NCBI GenBank assembly: GCA_030568195.1
Contig: JAJLTO010000003.1
Coordinates: 1,262,501-1,326,500, forward strand
Reading direction: 5' to 3'
Source of the DNA: Dipodascopsis uninucleata var. uninucleata
Lineage: Eukaryota > Ascomycota > Lipomycetes > Lipomycetales > Lipomycetaceae
Length of the DNA: 64,000 nt
The position numbers were made by a program, and so were the translations under genes. The notes under the pieces are model-generated. The model was not told the origin of the DNA. It did not search any database and worked only from the letters and a program-made list of their open reading frames with translations. Within the stretch, counting starts at the first letter, position 1. Every line of letters starts with the position of its first letter. Below, piece after piece: positions 25,351-40,934 of the stretch.

Positions 25351-28300
25351 ATGTCGTCTCGTCCTCAACAGCAGCAGTACGAGGCTGCCCCTGAAGGAGG
25401 TCATGCTCCTGACGGTGATCAATATTACGATGATGCTTACGAACAAGCTGCCTATGAACAGCCATACGATACTTATGACCAATATCCTGCTTATGATCAA
25501 GGTGCGTACCATGAGGGACAATACTATGATCCAGAGGACCCAAATTATGCACAAGGCTATTATCCGCAGCAAGGTGGGTATCCTGCAGACAATGGTAACG
25601 GCGAATACTACGGTAACGAACAATATGCCGGTGAATACTCAGCAGATGGTTATGCTGCAGGCGCAGGAGACATATATGGTAAGTGAAGATGTGGATCCAT
25701 TTTTTCTATCAAACAAATTTGGCTAATTGAATTTTGTTTCATATTTTAGAAGCGCCAGTTGCTAATGCTAAGAATATGGCGTACGGAGATCCTAGAAACA
25801 AGGGCAAGCGCCGAGGTCGCGACTCTGACCAGGAATCAGAGACATTTTCTGATTTCACTATGAGATCTGACATGGCTCGTGCTGCCGAGATGGATTATTA
25901 TGGTCGTGGTGATGAATCTCGTTACCAACAGGCTTACGGTGTCCAGGGTGAATTTAATGGTAACCAGCGTGCCTATCGTGAGTCGTCTTCGCAGGCCTCT
26001 TTCAATGGTAATCGCTCTTCTGGAGCTTCCACTCCAGTATATGGTCTCGATTATCAAAATGGCATGAATATACATGCACTTTCGCATGAACCTTATCCTA
26101 CATGGACTGCTGATAATCAAATTCCGCTGTCAAAGGAAGAAATTGAGGATATTTTCATTGATCTGACAAATAAATTCGGTTTTCAGCGTGATAGTATGCG
26201 AAACATGTTTGACCATTTCATGGTTCTTCTTGACTCTCGTGCTTCTCGTATGACTCCAAACCAAGCCTTATTGTCTTTGCATTCTGATTATATTGGAGGT
26301 GATAATGCAAACTACCGTAAGTGGTATTTTGCTGCTCATCTTGATCTTGATGATGAGATTGGTTTTAGAAATATGAAGATTGGCAAGCAGACAAAGAAAT
26401 CTAAAAAGGGCATTTTTTCTAAGAAGAAAGATGCTAAAAACCCACAGGTTCTTCCTCTTGACAATCCGGAACAAACCCTGGAAGAACTAGAGGGCGATAA
26501 TAGTTTGGAAGCCGCTGAATACAGATGGAAGACCCGCATGAATCAAATGTCTCAGCATGACCGAACTCGTCAAATTGTTCTTTATCTCCTTTGCTGGGGT
26601 GAGGCTAATCAGGTTCGCTTTTGTCCTGAGGCTCTCTGCTTCATCTTCAAATGTGCTGATGACTATCTTCAGTCACAAGAGTGTCAGAATCGTGTTGAAC
26701 CTGTTGAGGAAGGCTCATTCCTTACCAATGTTATAACTCCTATCTACATGTTTATTCGTGACCAAGGATACGAGATTGTTAATGGAAAGTATGTTCGCCG
26801 TGAGCGGGACCATAACAAGGTTATTGGTTATGATGATATCAATCAGCTTTTCTGGTACCCAGAGGGTATAGAGCGCATAGTCTTAGAGGATGGTACAAGA
26901 ATTGTTGATATTCCTGCTAGTGATCGTTATCCAAAGCTTGGTGAAGTTGAATGGAAGAAAGTCTTTTTCAAGACTTACAGGGAATCTCGATCCTGGTATC
27001 ATTTGGCTGTTAATTTCAATCGTGTTTGGGTTATCCACGTCACTATGTTTTGGTTTTACAACGCGTTTAATTCTCCAACTCTTTACACTAAAGATTACGT
27101 GCAGATGCTCAATAACCAACCTCAGCCTCAGTCGCGTTGGTCTGCCGTTGCCCTTGGTGGTGCTGTAGCTGCGCTGATTAATATTATTGCCACAATTGGT
27201 GAATGGGTTTTTGTTCCCAGAAACTGGGCTGGCGCACAGCATTTGACTCGTCGTTTAATGTTTATTATCGTGATCTTTATTATTAATTTCGCTCCTTCGG
27301 TTTACATCTTTGGTTTTGTCAAGCTTGATGAGAAGAACAAGGGTGCGCATATTCTTGGAATTGTTCAATTCTTTATTGCTCTCCCTACATTCCTTTTCTT
27401 TTCCATTATGCCTCTTGGTTCACTGTTTGGAAACATTACCACCAAGAATAGTAGAAGATATGTTGCTAACCAGACTTTCACCGCTAGTTTCCCTAAGTTG
27501 AAGGGGAATGATATGTGGCTGTCTTACGGTTTATGGGTCGCTGTTTTCGCATCTAAATTCATCGAGTCTTACTTCTTCTTGACTCTGTCACTTCGTGATC
27601 CAATTCGTATTTTGAGTACTCTCACGGTTGATCGATGTGTCGGTGAGAAATATTTCGGAAATATTCTTTGCAAACAGCAACCCCATATTGTTTTGATTAT
27701 GATGTATATCACTGATTTGGTTCTCTTCTTCCTCGATACTTATTTATGGTATATTATTTGGAACGTTATTTTCTCTGTCGCCCGCTCGTTCTACTTGGGT
27801 GTCTCTATTTTGACACCTTGGAGAAATATCTTCTCTCGTTTACCAAAGCGAATTTACTCAAAGGTCTTGGCTACTACTGATATGGAGATCAAGTATAAAC
27901 CGAAAGTTTTAATTTCACAAATCTGGAATGCTATCGTTATCTCAATGTATCGAGAGCATTTACTCGCGATTGATCATGTTCAGAGGCTTCTTTATCATCA
28001 GGTACCTTCTGAACAGGAAGGAAAGCGTACTCTTCGTGCTCCAACTTTTTTTGTTGCCCAGGAGGACCATTCATTTAATGCTGAATTTTTCCCGGCTGGT
28101 AGTGAAGCGGAACGTCGTATTTCTTTCTTTGCTCAATCTTTGTCTACACCAATTCCAGAACCTCTCCCAGTTGACAATATGCCCACTTTCACTGTCATGG
28201 TTCCTCATTATGCTGAGAAGATTCTTTTGTCACTTCGTGAGATCATTCGCGAGGATGATCAATTTGCTCGTGTTACCCTTTTGGAATACTTGAAGCATCT

Positions 28301-31292
28301 CCATCCAACAGAATGGGATTGCTTCGTTAAGGATACTAAGATTTTGGCGGAGGAGACTGGTGGCTACAATGGCAGTTCAGTTAATCTCGAAAAGGATGAT
28401 GAAACAGTTAAGAGCAAGATTGATGATCTTCCTTTCTATTGCATTGGTTTCAAGTCTGCGGCGCCTGAATATACTCTTCGAACTCGTATCTGGGCGTCTC
28501 TTAGGTATCAGACTTTGTATCGTACAATTTCTGGTTTTATGAACTATAGCCGGGCAATTAAGCTTTTATATCGTGTGGAGAATCCTGAAGTTGTTCAGAT
28601 GTTTGGAGGCAATACTGATAAACTGGAGAGAGAATTAGAGCGTATGGCTCGTAGGAAGTTCAAGTTCTTGGTTTCTATGCAGCGTTTGACTAAATTCAAA
28701 CCCGATGAAATGGAGAACACAGAATTTTTATTGCGTGCTTATCCTGATCTTCAGATTGCTTATCTTGACGAGGAACCTCCTTTGAATGAGGATGATGAAC
28801 CTAGAATATACTCTGCTCTAATTGATGGTCACTGCGAAATTATGGAGAATGGACGCCGTCGTCCTAAATTCCGTGTACAGCTGTCTGGAAATCCAATTCT
28901 CGGAGATGGAAAATCTGATAATCAGAACCATGCTTTGATTTTCTATCGTGGTGAATATATCCAACTTATTGATGCTAATCAGGATAATTATCTCGAGGAG
29001 TGCTTGAAGATTCGAAGCGTTTTGGCCGAATTTGAGGAGATGACCGTTGAAAATGCCAACCCATATTCACCAGGCGTGCCATCGTCAGACAATTTTCCAG
29101 TTGCTATTTTGGGTGCTCGTGAATACATCTTCTCCGAGAACATTGGTGTCCTTGGTGACGTTGCTGCTGGAAAGGAACAGACTTTCGGTACTTTGTTTGC
29201 CAGAACCCTTGCTCAGATCGGTGGAAAGCTTCATTACGGTCATCCAGATTTCCTCAATGCCGTTTTTATGACCACTCGTGGCGGTGTTTCGAAGGCTCAG
29301 AAAGGTTTACATTTGAATGAAGATATTTATGCTGGTATGAATGCGCTTATGCGTGGTGGTCGTATTAAACATTGTGAGTACTATCAGTGTGGTAAAGGTC
29401 GTGATCTTGGTTTTGGCTCCATTTTGAATTTTACCACCAAGATTGGTACCGGTATGGGTGAACAGTTTTTGTCTCGTGAATACTACTATCTTGGTACGCA
29501 GTTACCTCTTGATCGTTTCTTGTCCTTTTTTTATGCTCATCCTGGTTTCCATATCAACAACTTGTTCATTATTCTCTCTGTGCAGTTTTTCATGTTGGTT
29601 TTGCTCAACATTGGTTCTTTGGCTCATGAGACTATTCTCTGTTGGTATAACAAGCATACTCCTATTACGGATCCCGAAGTTCCTATTGGTTGTTACAATT
29701 TGCATCCTGTTATTAACTGGGTTGAGCGCTGTATCTTGTCTATCTTTATTGTCTTCTTCTTTTCGTTCATTCCCTTGGTTGTTCAAGAAATTATGGAGCG
29801 CGGTGTCTGGCATTCAGCCAAGCGTCTCGCAAAGCATTTCCTATCTACCTCTCCGTTGTTTGAAGTGTTCGTTTGTCAAATTTATGCCAACTCTTTGTTA
29901 ACTGATATGTCTTATGGTGGAGCTCGATACATCGGTACCGGTCGTGGATTTGCTTTTACTCGTATTCCTTTCTCGGTTTTATATTCTCGTTTTGCTGGAC
30001 CAGCAATCTACTTCGGTGCACGTTCATTTATGATGCTTTTGTTTGCTACGTTGACTATCTGGAACGCAGCTTTGATTTGGTTCTGGATTTCCTTATTTGC
30101 ATTGTGCGAGTCGCCATTTTTATATAACCCTCATCAGTTTGCCTGGACAGATTTCTTCATTGATTATAGAGACTTTGTTAGATGGCTCTCTAGAGGTAAT
30201 ACTAAGTGGCACAAAAATTCGTGGATTGGATACTGCAGACTCATTCGAACCAGAATTACTGGTTATAAGAGAAAGACACTTGGAGATGAGTCCGAGACTA
30301 GTATTAGTGATGTTCCTCGAGCGCATTTCACAAACGTTTTCTTTTCTGAAATTGTTGGTCCTTTGATTGTCGCTGTTTGTGCTGTGATTCCTTACTTCTA
30401 CATTAATGCACAGACTGGTGTGAAGAATGCTTCTGAAGTTAATTCTGTTCTTCGACTTGCCATTATTACTTTTGGTCCTATTGTTATTGATGCCGGTGTC
30501 CTTGGAGGTCTCTTTGGATTAGCGTGCTGTGCAGGTCCTATTATTGGTCTGTGCTGCAAGAAGACTAGTGCTGTTATTGCGGCAATTGCTCATGGTATTG
30601 CCGTTGTTGTTCAGATCGTCTTTTTCGAGGTCATGTGGCTCTTACAGGGCTGGGAATTCAGTAAGGCTTTGTTGGGAATGTGTGCTGCTTTAGCAGTTCA
30701 AAGACTTATCTTCAAGCTTATGACTATTCTTTTCTTGACAAGAGAATTCAAGCATGATCATGCGAATCGTGCTTGGTGGTCTGGTAAATGGTATGGTGAA
30801 GGTCTTGGCTGGCATTCGTGGACTCAACCTGGACGAGAATATATCTGTAAGATTGTTGAGTTAAGTATGTTCAGTGGTGATTTCATTCTGGGACATATTA
30901 TTCTCTTCGTCCAATTTCCTTTCTTGTGTCTTCCATGGGCTGATAGATGTCATTCAATGATGTTGTTCTGGCTTCGTCCAAGTCGTCAAATTCGTCCTCC
31001 AATTTTCTCCTTGAAGCAAACTAAGCTGAGAAAGCGTATGGTTAAAAAGTATGCTACACTTTACTTCGTTTTGTTTGTTGTTTTCTTGGCATTGATTATT
31101 GCTCCTGCTGTTGCTGGTAAGTATGTCCCTGATAATTTTGCCGACAATCTTCCAAGTAGTTTCAGTGGACTAGTACAGCCAACTGGACAGGATAACAATG
31201 ACACTGGACCAAATGCACCATCATCTGTTTTGGCGTCGTTTTCCAGTGCTTCTTCTCTTGCACACGCATCAACTGCATATGTTCATTCATAA
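25351..31292 (+). CDS. FKS1: 1,3-beta-glucan synthase catalytic subunit
   Basis: Two exons, join(25351..25678,25750..31292), with a 71-nt intron; 1956 residues, full family length. The first exon encodes a Tyr/Gln/Asp-rich cytosolic N-terminus. The FKS1_dom1 region ([24 protein letters not shown]) and a first block of membrane helices follow. The large cytosolic catalytic region includes [19 protein letters not shown] and [18 protein letters not shown] second block of helices precedes a Ser-rich tail. The enzyme uses UDP-glucose at the plasma membrane to make wall glucan, is activated by Rho1, and is the echinocandin target. Hot spot 1 reads FLTLSLRDP (719-727), the susceptible form. The hot spot 2 position reads NWVERCIL (1432-1439), unlike DWVRRYTL of S. 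cerevisiae. Third codon positions are rich in T, suggesting high expression. Confidence 0.98.
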
Positions 31293-31749: not shown

Positions 31750-33403
31750 ATGGCTTCATTTACAGTTTTAATCACTGGAGCTACTGGTATTTTGGGTCGT
31801 CAAGTCTTAAAGCAGTTTGCTACGGATCATGATAAATGGAATGTTGTCGGTACAGGTGAGATGCAGAATCGCTGTAGATTGATTTCTTGTTCGTTTCCTA
31901 ATATGGCCACTCACTCTTAGGATTCACAAGATGCACAGGATCGATCATCAGATTGGACTTACAAGATAAAAGGAGCGTTAAGAAACTATTGTTGGAGAAA
32001 AGGTGAGTAATGCTCAAGAAATTTGATAGATGTTCTATTATACATGACAAGTATTAATGCTCAATAATAGACCATCAGTAATAGTTCACACAGCAGCTGA
32101 ACGACGTCCAGATATAGCGGCGCAGAGACCTGAGCAAGTAAAGGAGCTCAACATAGAAGCTACTAGATACTTAGCATCTTTAGCATCTGATTTAAATATC
32201 CCGTTTCTATACTTGTCTACTGGTAACATCCCAAAAACATGTTTGAAGAGTTTTAACAGACTATTTTAAGCAAAATAATTTAACGAGACGTTTGCAGATT
32301 ACGTATTCGACGGAACTAAAGCGCCTTATGAACCAGGCGATACACCAAAGTAAGTCATCAGTGGCTTGTTTGGAAAGAGTTATATTCTTGTTAACAAGGT
32401 ACGCATGCTGCGCTCAATTTAGTCCTACGAATTTCTATGGTGAAACGAAGTTGGCCGGCGAGAAAGTCGCGTTAGAGGAATGTAAAAAGACAATCGTTTT
32501 GAGAGTTCCTGTAAGTTATAATGATCTAGATCTAATCACTGTAAAGTGAACGCCCTCGTCTATAACTAGTAATCTAATGTGACTATCCACCATTCGACTA
32601 TTAGGTACTGTAAGTACATCATGACTGTGGTATGATATTTTATACTTCACTGCTGACTGGAATCAGCTACGGGAATACCGAAGTTAATGAAGAATCGGCA
32701 ATAAATGTCCTTATAGATGTGACCTTGGTAATTATGCTAGTTGTTCGTTCGTTAATACTTTGCGAATTATTGATTAAGATTGAAACTTTACAGAATGAGG
32801 ACCAAAAGCCAGCAGAATCCGTTGGAATGGACAACTGGCAAATTAGATATCCAACGTATGGAATCAATTGAGATTTATCAGATCAACGTGAAGAACATAT
32901 CTAATCAACTATAACAATAGGAATACTTCTGATGTTGCTCGTGTTATAAAGTCGATCTCAGGTAGATAGATCTTTATTAGGACTTCAAATAGGTAGAGAT
33001 GATACTAATAGAGATATCGTTACGACTATAAAAGATTTAGCAATGCAAGGGACAATGATCCCGAATATCTTACACTTTAGCTCGGACGAAAGATTCACAA
33101 AGTAAGCTGTACATTTATTCATATAATTATATTGTGTATCATAGCACACTTAATCTTGATTTATTCTAATATATCATTAGATACGAAATTTGTCAGATTT
33201 TTGGAGAAATTCTTGGAGTTCCAATAGGTCATTTGAAGCGAATCGACTCTTATCCTGAAGTATCCAGGACGCCTTCCGGTATTGTTCGCCCGTATAATAC
33301 TCAACTCTCGGTTCAGCTTTTAAAAGACATCGGAATTGACTGTAGTTCGGTTGATTTCAGAGAGTGGTGGAAGAAAGAGCTGCTGCCAAATAAAAGGCGC
33401 TAG
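31750..33403 (+). CDS. MAT2B-like NAD(P)-binding reductase-fold protein (RmlD/SDR family)
   Basis: Eleven short exons: join(31750..31855,31921..32002,32071..32222,32298..32349,32423..32510,32605..32609,32667..32727,32794..32855,32921..32961,32993..33101,33181..33403), 326 residues. The Rossmann start is VLITGATGILGRQVL; later come HTAAERRPD, LSTDYVFDGTKAPYEP and the SDR active-site pair Tyr136/Lys140 (NFYGETKLAGEK), then VLRVPVLYGNTEVNEESA and MDNWQIRYPT. This is the pattern of MAT2B, the regulatory subunit of methionine adenosyltransferase II, related to dTDP-4-dehydrorhamnose reductase. Exon 6 is only 5 nt (GTACT) and is required for the frame. The junction 32962..32992 is uncertain: reading through hits a stop, and the best join implies a 31-nt intron. 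A weaker alternative uses a GTGTTA donor with a 40- or 52-nt intron. Confidence 0.85.
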
Positions 33404-39351: not shown

Positions 39352-40934
39352 ATGGCCGTGCAGTCCCAGATAGCCTTCATCAAGACACCTGCTGCACAAG
39401 AGCAACCAGCACCAAATGATGACTGTGGTGTGCGGACTACTTGCTCGCCTGCTATCAAAAACGCACCTTTACCGGCTGATGGCCCTGGCTCTAAACACTT
39501 CAATAACTATATCCTTTTCTCGCTAATTTTTTTTGTTCCATACTACGCAAGCTCGCTTGTGCATGGTGGAATAAAGACATTTTTTCTGTTCTTTACGCTG
39601 CTCGCTATCCCGGTATTGGCATCTTACTGGTCTGTTATGTCCTCATTCTCTCCGCGCTTGAATCAGAAAGCTAAGTTTCCTGGCAAGGGTGTCGAGCATT
39701 ACTTGGATTTCCACGATGAGCAAGATAAGGTTAAGTACAGTGGATCAAACAAGATTCCTATGGAAACGTTCCACGAGATGTACTTCGATGGTAAAGTCTC
39801 CTTCAAGGGCGACTGCCTCGATATTCTGGAGTATCGTCATGACTGGGCTTCTTTCAGATTTACCATCTCTCTCTATAGGTTTTTCCTTACTGGTATGATT
39901 CCGGAGGTTATCATGCACAGCAGATCTCAGGATGAGGAGCAAGTTCGCGATCACTATGATCGAGGTGATGATTTCGTAAGTTTGTTAACTATCTATATAT
40001 CAACATCGTGTACTTGTACTAATGACAATTGATTTAATTGCTATAGTATAGTTGGTTTTTAGGGCCAAGAATGATTTACACTTCAGGTATTATCAGCGAC
40101 ATCAATACAGAGGAGACACTTGAGGAGCTTCAGGATAACAAGCTTCGCGTTGTGTGTGAAAAGCTTCAATTGAAGAAGGGCGAGAAGCTTCTTGATTTGG
40201 GCTGTGGTTGGGGTACTCTTGCCAAATTTGCCTCTACTCAGTATGGCGCTCATGTAACTGGTATTACTCTTGGTAAGAACCAGACTCAATGGGGCAATAA
40301 GGGACTTCAGGATGCTGGTATTTCTTCTTCTCAGAGCAGAATTCTTTGCATGGACTACCGTGACACTCCTGCCCCTGAATCTGGCAAATATGACAAGATC
40401 TCCTGTCTTGAGATGGCTGAGCATGTTGGTATCCGAAAGTTCTCTGCCTTCCTTAGACAAGTCTATGATTTGCTTGAAGATGACGGTATTTTCATACTCC
40501 AGATTGCTGGTTTAAGAAAGTCGTGGCAATACGAGGATTTGATTTGGGGTCTATTCATGAACAAGTATATTTTCCCTGGTGCAGACGCTTCTACTCCTCT
40601 TGGATTCGTCATTGATAATTTGGAAGGTGCAGGTTTCGAAGTTGTTTCTGTTGATAATATCGGAGTTCACTACTCTGCTACACTTTGGCGTTGGTACAGA
40701 AACTGGATCGCTAACAAGGACAAAGTTCTTAACAAGTATGGCGAAAGATGGTTTAGAATCTGGGAATTCTTTCTTGCATATTCTACTATCATCTCGCGTC
40801 AGGGATCTGCCACTTGTTTCCAGATTGTATTGCGCAAGAACTTAAATTCCTACCACAGAATCGAGGATGTTCCTCATCAGTTTGGTCTTCACGTTCCTGA
40901 GCCAGAGACTGGAAACAAGTGGCTCGAAGAGTAA
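39352..40934 (+). CDS. MTS1: Sphingolipid C9-methyltransferase
   Basis: Two exons, join(39352..39975,40047..40934), 71-nt intron, 503 residues. The N-terminus carries two membrane helices (about 53-97: YILFSLIFFVPYYASSLV and FFLFFTLLAIPVLASYW). A cyclopropane-fatty-acid-synthase-type methyltransferase domain follows: DHYDRGDDFYSWFLGPRMIY before the SAM-binding motif LLDLGCGWGTLAKFA (about 256), then GITLGKNQTQWGN, CLEMAEHVG and NIGVHYSATLWRWYRNW. The enzyme adds the 9-methyl branch to the sphingoid base of fungal glucosylceramide, at the ER, using S-adenosylmethionine. Length and topology match Candida and Pichia Mts1. S. cerevisiae and S. pombe lack the glucosylceramide pathway, so the species probably makes glucosylceramide; the synthase itself is not in this window. 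Confidence 0.96.

Follow-up and report, generated by a model that had tools for sequence, protein, structure and literature searches.

Locus and predicted gene product

The window, by which we mean the whole stretch of 64,000 nt analyzed here, contains a beta-1,3-glucan synthase (PF02364), 1,408 aa of which match FKS1 and GSC2 entries, no PDB sequences other than these 6 falling under 1e-20. Given this FKS1/GSC2-type enzyme, we took the source to be a fungus, and the FKS1 N-terminus suggests an ascomycete. The FKS1-type gene lies at 25351-31292 (+), spans about 5.9 kb and reaches its stop codon with just one intron (25679-25749). Its neighbor at 31750-33403 (+) is interrupted by about ten introns over 1.65 kb, a sharp contrast in intron density.

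This second gene, MAT2B-like as shown below, starts with an ATG at 31750 and has a stop codon ending at 33403, and its coding sequence can be read as 11 proposed exons, all on the forward strand, encoding 326 aa. By our reading of the gene, exon 1 (31750-31855) contains the ATG and TGATGILG, which we take to be the nucleotide-binding motif, and is followed by exons 2 (31921-32002), 3 (32071-32222), 4 (32298-32349) and 5 (32423-32510), the last of which ends with LRVP (CCT/GTAAGT). Downstream lie intron 5 (32511-32604; 94 nt, GTAAGT...TTAG, with a branch-like CTAAT whose A is 27 nt before the end), the candidate microexon, exon 6 (32605-32609), whose 5 nt GTACT supply the Val161 codon and positions 1 and 2 of the Leu162 codon, and intron 6 (32610-32666; 57 nt, GTAAGT...TCAG, with a branch-like CTGAC whose A is 10 nt before the end). 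Exon 7 (32667-32727) starts with (L)YGNTE, aligned to LYGEVE of MAT2B, and the reading is completed by exons 8 (32794-32855), 9 (32921-32961), 10 (32993-33101) and 11 (33181-33403), the last containing the stop codon; the 3′ boundary of exon 9 and the 5′ boundary of exon 10 are uncertain.

At that junction, in the stretch 32956-33013, exon 9 (DVARVIKSIS) reads into a stop, such that a second unusual splice is needed in this gene. In-frame introns from the CAG/GTAGAT donor at 32962 would be 19, 31, 37, 52 or 73 nt long, and 12 more GT/GC-AG solutions use other donors. The 31-nt intron chosen for the model is very short and has no branch-like motif, and homology gives no decision here because the stretch is gapped against MAT2B.

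Comparison with solved structures suggests that MAT2B-like, the label given in the original prediction, is a fair one. The top PDB matches of the predicted protein (phmmer) are four different sequences that carry the name methionine adenosyltransferase 2 subunit beta, presumably human, at E about 2e-58 (1.9e-58 to 2.2e-58), with alignments spanning residues 5 to 320 or 321, while the best dTDP-4-dehydrorhamnose reductase entry lies far behind (E 8.7e-22). The microexon-containing protein matches PF04321 (RmlD_sub_bind) at 176.9 bits; against the NCBIfam rmlD equivalog it reaches 145.3 bits, under the cut-off of 224.05, and its full-length similarity is nearer to MAT2B than to RmlD. Pairwise alignment with MAT2B gave 42% identity, ungapped at VLRxPxLYG, and aligned YGxTKLxGEK and VLRxP, both encoded in exon 5, with their MAT2B counterparts. 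MAT2B is a regulator of S-adenosylmethionine synthesis, and a regulatory role on a MAT catalytic subunit is putative for this protein; a literature search for fungal MAT2B found no papers.

GTACT restores the reading frame

Exon 5 ends with GTTCCT at 32510, followed by GTAAGT, and exon 7 starts with CTACGGG at 32667, after ATCAG. The original prediction had placed TTAG/GTACT/GTAAGT between these two ends, with GTACT at 32605-32609 and introns of 94 and 57 nt on either side, and it had claimed that joining 32510 directly to 32667 leads to a stop and that GTACT restores the downstream frame. The coordinates and intron lengths proved exact, and the direct join indeed reads CCT CTA CGG GAA TAC CGA AGT TAA, with a stop after seven codons. 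We searched for middle exons with donor 32511 and acceptor 32666 fixed, at least 30 nt of intron on each side, AG before and GT or GC after. In this search GTACT is the only exon that leaves the frame open through exon 8, bearing out the second claim, and it yields R-V-P-V-L-Y-G, which we assign, within the extended SDR fold, to the strand that follows the YxxxK helix.

The proposed exon, 5 nt long against a microexon limit of ~30 nt, has canonical splice sites on both sides (a TTAG acceptor of average score and a GTAAGT donor) and is needed for the reading frame, its length not being a multiple of 3. The truncated product of skipping scores 139.7 bits with PF04321, versus 176.9 with the microexon, and retention of intron 6 or intron 5 would give RVPVL-stop or RVPVSYNDLDLITVK-stop, respectively. 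The 5 nt at 32605-32609 very probably form a real exon of this fungal MAT2B-like gene, and probably a constitutive one. One could instead suppose a sequencing or assembly error in the intron, or a decaying gene from which a functional exon is absent, and the neighboring stretch 32962-33013 is likewise awkward to model. However, the remaining coding sequence is readable to the stop with 42% identity to MAT2B, and the gap is closed by a canonical exon of fitting length, with no need to assume an error, which makes this explanation extremely improbable. RNA folding of 32500-32680 did not stand out (z -1.53), 13 of 200 shuffles giving an equal or better fold, and we claim no structural mechanism for this region.

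Strength of the splice sites and chance occurrence of the motif

Splice sites were scored by a leave-one-out model built on a very small set of nine reference introns, seven from the MAT2B-like gene, one from FKS1 and one at 39976-40046. These measure 65-79 nt, such that introns 5 (94 nt) and 6 (57 nt) fall just beyond either end of the range. The original prediction had described both the acceptor and the donor of the microexon as strong, which is overstated for the acceptor. On six intronic bases, both GTAAGT donors are top-scoring, a score reached by 0.64% of the GTs in the window, while the acceptors are average: 17% of window AGs score as high as TTAG of intron 5, and 33% as high as TCAG of intron 6. 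The last exon base is T at both donors, which is unfavorable in the leave-one-out model (G 5, A 2, C 2 and no T among the nine reference introns), and with three exon bases modeled, donors 32511 and 32610 are equaled or outscored by 7.2% and 5.1% of window GTs, respectively.

The reference intron at 39976-40046 (+) is 71 nt long (GTAAGT...TATAG) and interrupts a CMAS-family methyltransferase gene, presumably encoding a sphingolipid C9-methyltransferase; its removal restores GDDF-YSWFLGPRM, as judged by eye.

The motif alone is unremarkable, YAG-N5-GTAAGT being observed twice in the window versus 1.07 expected. What goes beyond chance is its position: it sits in the only intron to disrupt the frame, is of the length required and encodes the expected residues. 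Among 20,000 dinucleotide shuffles of the intron, with the first 6 and last 4 bases held, 44 contained a frame-restoring YAG/GTAAGT exon of at most 30 nt, 2 such an exon of 5 nt, and 1 a 5-nt exon that also encoded a hydrophobic pair before YG. When any GT was allowed as donor, the same three classes rose to 8,491, 1,767 and 341 of 20,000. With shuffles of this kind succeeding so often, it is the perfect match of the donor to GTAAGT, together with homology, that carries the case.

Homologue spacing and single-intron alternatives

We compared the predicted protein with 97 intronless homologues, comprising the best 80 of 590 prokaryotic candidates and all 17 confirmed ones from viral contigs; with the 80 being a best-scoring subset, and the microexon already included in the query used to retrieve and align all 97, they are no neutral sample. 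Residues 158-164 are covered by 93 of them, the other 4 stopping short. Between Arg158 and residue 163, 92 of the 93 are ungapped, with exactly four residues, matching the microexon-containing protein. A script flagged a gap within or bordering 158-164 in 6/93, five of which (L027, L042, L052, L061 and L068) fall after residue 163; the sixth, L076, is the sole homologue gapped between 158 and 163 and nonetheless reads R-x4-Y. Arg158 is invariant (93/93), residue 162 is L, V or I in 89 and residue 163 is Y or F in 91, while residue 161 is variable (Trp in 53, Val in 11, Leu in 10) and residue 160 is Pro in just 11. Because positions 160 and 161 vary in this way, Val itself is not strong evidence for the microexon.

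Using donors at 32470-32600 and acceptors up to 32690, we found 21 single introns that are in frame and free of stops, 6 of them GT-AG and 15 AT-AC. The AT-AC introns were set aside as a rare class, and four of the GT-AG introns lose conserved residues (LRVP or YG). The remaining two keep LRVP and YGN. One of them, 32515-32614 (donor GTTATA), would insert 17 residues and gives 163.7 bits with PF04321, its donor score being equaled or exceeded by 45% of window GTs on six bases and by 33.3% with three exon bases. The other would dispense with the microexon by extending exon 5 to 32545, followed by one 121-nt intron at 32546-32666 (GTGAAC...TCAG), such that VSYNDLDLITVN replaces VL and the protein gains 10 residues. 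This intron is canonical GT-AG, in frame and stop-free, and with three exon bases its donor score is reached by 14.4% of window GTs, fairly close to the 7.2% for 32511. It would nevertheless skip a GTAAGT 35 nt upstream in favor of GTGAAC (a score that 32% of window GTs attain on six bases), insert 10 residues where 92/93 aligned homologues are ungapped, lower the PF04321 score by 13 bits (163.9 vs 176.9) and make TTAG/GTACT/GTAAGT a coincidence, and we regard it as scarcely credible. Both motif-keeping introns were rejected on their weaker donors, the homologue spacing and the lower PF04321 scores. Smaller Pfam families do not discriminate, PF02719, for instance, giving 40.2 bits to the microexon-containing protein, 41.6 to the one with the 10-residue insertion and 42.5 to the truncated product.

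Among the homologues, RVPVLYG occurs letter for letter as in the window in L001 and L003 (Pseudoalteromonas). Together with L002 and L004-L010 (Caballeronia, Burkholderia and Paraburkholderia), these bacterial relatives have 35-37% identity and carry the MAT2B-like VPVLYG or LPLLYG, not the RmlD-like TSWLYG found in others, and may represent a bacterial MAT2B-like subgroup.

Proposed order of splicing

The analysis demonstrates the sequence, the frame and the homology, whereas that GTACT is spliced, in which order and how constantly, we infer. Introns 5 and 6 are short, and each carries a GTAAGT donor, a branch-like element and an AG of its own; such a full set of signals per intron would favor recognition across the intron (intron definition), with no exon-bridging factor. 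Two spliceosomes would be unlikely to occupy sites 5 nt apart at once, so that the introns would be removed stepwise. In the simplest order, intron 6 would be removed first, fusing GTACT to exon 7 and leaving intron 5 with a downstream exon of normal length. Were intron 5 removed first, the resulting junction CCT/GTACTG would make a weak donor (the six-base score of GTACTG is equaled or exceeded by 54.6% of window GTs) and should lose out to the GTAAGT located 5 nt downstream. Stepwise (recursive) removal with intron definition has been proposed for Arabidopsis APC11, likewise an ultra-small exon needed for the frame, constitutive and 1 nt long, which differs in belonging to a plant and in having been tested by reporter constructs (PMC4674806, excerpt). 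Human cells can turn, in a second step, to a donor lying a few bases past a newly formed junction and so include a 6-nt microexon, and donors in such positions tend to be repressed by the exon junction complex (PMC6224609, excerpt). If fungi resemble human cells in this respect, removing intron 6 first would sidestep that repression.

Since skipping of the microexon or retention of either intron leads to an early stop, constitutive inclusion is to be expected, provided that the protein matters. The same anatomy could be read as an alternatively spliced switch around a real microexon, in which inclusion gives the protein and skipping or retention gives a stopped, degraded mRNA, thereby setting the amount of MAT2B-like protein. 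The exon length, not a multiple of 3, the stop seven codons after skipping and the stops upon retention of either intron would suit such a switch. However, short introns often contain in-frame stops anyway, and stop-bearing anatomy is therefore not evidence of regulation. A precedent from a filamentous fungus is Trichoderma virens Xlr2, whose microexon decides by its presence which protein is made and is reportedly glucose-dependent (PMC11121469, excerpt), GTACT not being known to be regulated. We consider a switch at this locus unlikely, though it would be compatible with our preferred reading of a 5-nt exon in everything except the word constitutive. Less probable still, and very doubtful, is an ancient, conserved control point at which stepwise splicing past a possible recursive donor, CCT/GTACTG, would compete with the GTAAGT five bases on, with a balance that might respond to methionine or S-adenosylmethionine setting full MAT2B-like subunit against degraded mRNA.

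Comparison with known ultra-small exons

The original prediction held that exons this small are rare in fungi; rare they are, yet examples are in print, down to 1 nt (PMC12940212, excerpt) and 6 bp (PMC1184071, excerpt). The first is found in Fusarium CYP621A orthologues, with SRA reads (Nelson and Syed 2026, PMC12940212, excerpt). As with GTACT, this fungal exon was deduced because two conserved exons join out of phase, and it lies within a conserved motif, inside an apparent single over-long intron, with an intronless relative as length marker. It differs in being 1 nt long, in a P450 gene, and documented by 20 orthologues and SRA reads, GTACT being predicted from the sequence. The second belongs to the Phanerochaete chrysosporium P450 genes, which are likewise fungal, with very small exons and small introns; here the organism is a basidiomycete, the genes form a P450 family, and the shortest exon, 6 bp, is a multiple of 3 (PMC1184071, excerpt). 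Searching published 5-nt exons and fungal microexons, we found no MAT2B case in the titles and abstract openings of the papers listed. Ultra-small exons being already known, GTACT is a good example and not a new kind.

What makes it worth noting is that it offers a clean, checkable example, from a conserved metabolic gene, of an exon whose shortness will probably hide it from gene finders and read mappers. If confirmed, this 5-nt case would join the few fungal ultra-small exons found in print, offer a compact natural substrate for how intron definition copes with splice sites 5 nt apart, and warn that automatic annotation may truncate or mis-join the MAT2B-like gene; the understanding of splicing would be unchanged.

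In animals, the microexons of Drosophila Ubx are 51 nt long. The 5-nt exons of Ubx cited by PMC8042270 (excerpt) may be a misprint, and PMC12940212 (excerpt) refers to 2-5 bp exons in Arabidopsis, Drosophila and humans. Such animal and plant exons of 2-6 nt belong to the same length class as GTACT, but are not fungal.

A scan of the whole window for microexons of at most 24 nt with a GTRAGY donor, on both strands, returned 51 candidate structures at 18 places, one of which is the GTACT microexon. Two (25661/25667-25678) were dropped because FKS1 exon 25351-25678 is one open frame, and 15 places stand as bare scan candidates.
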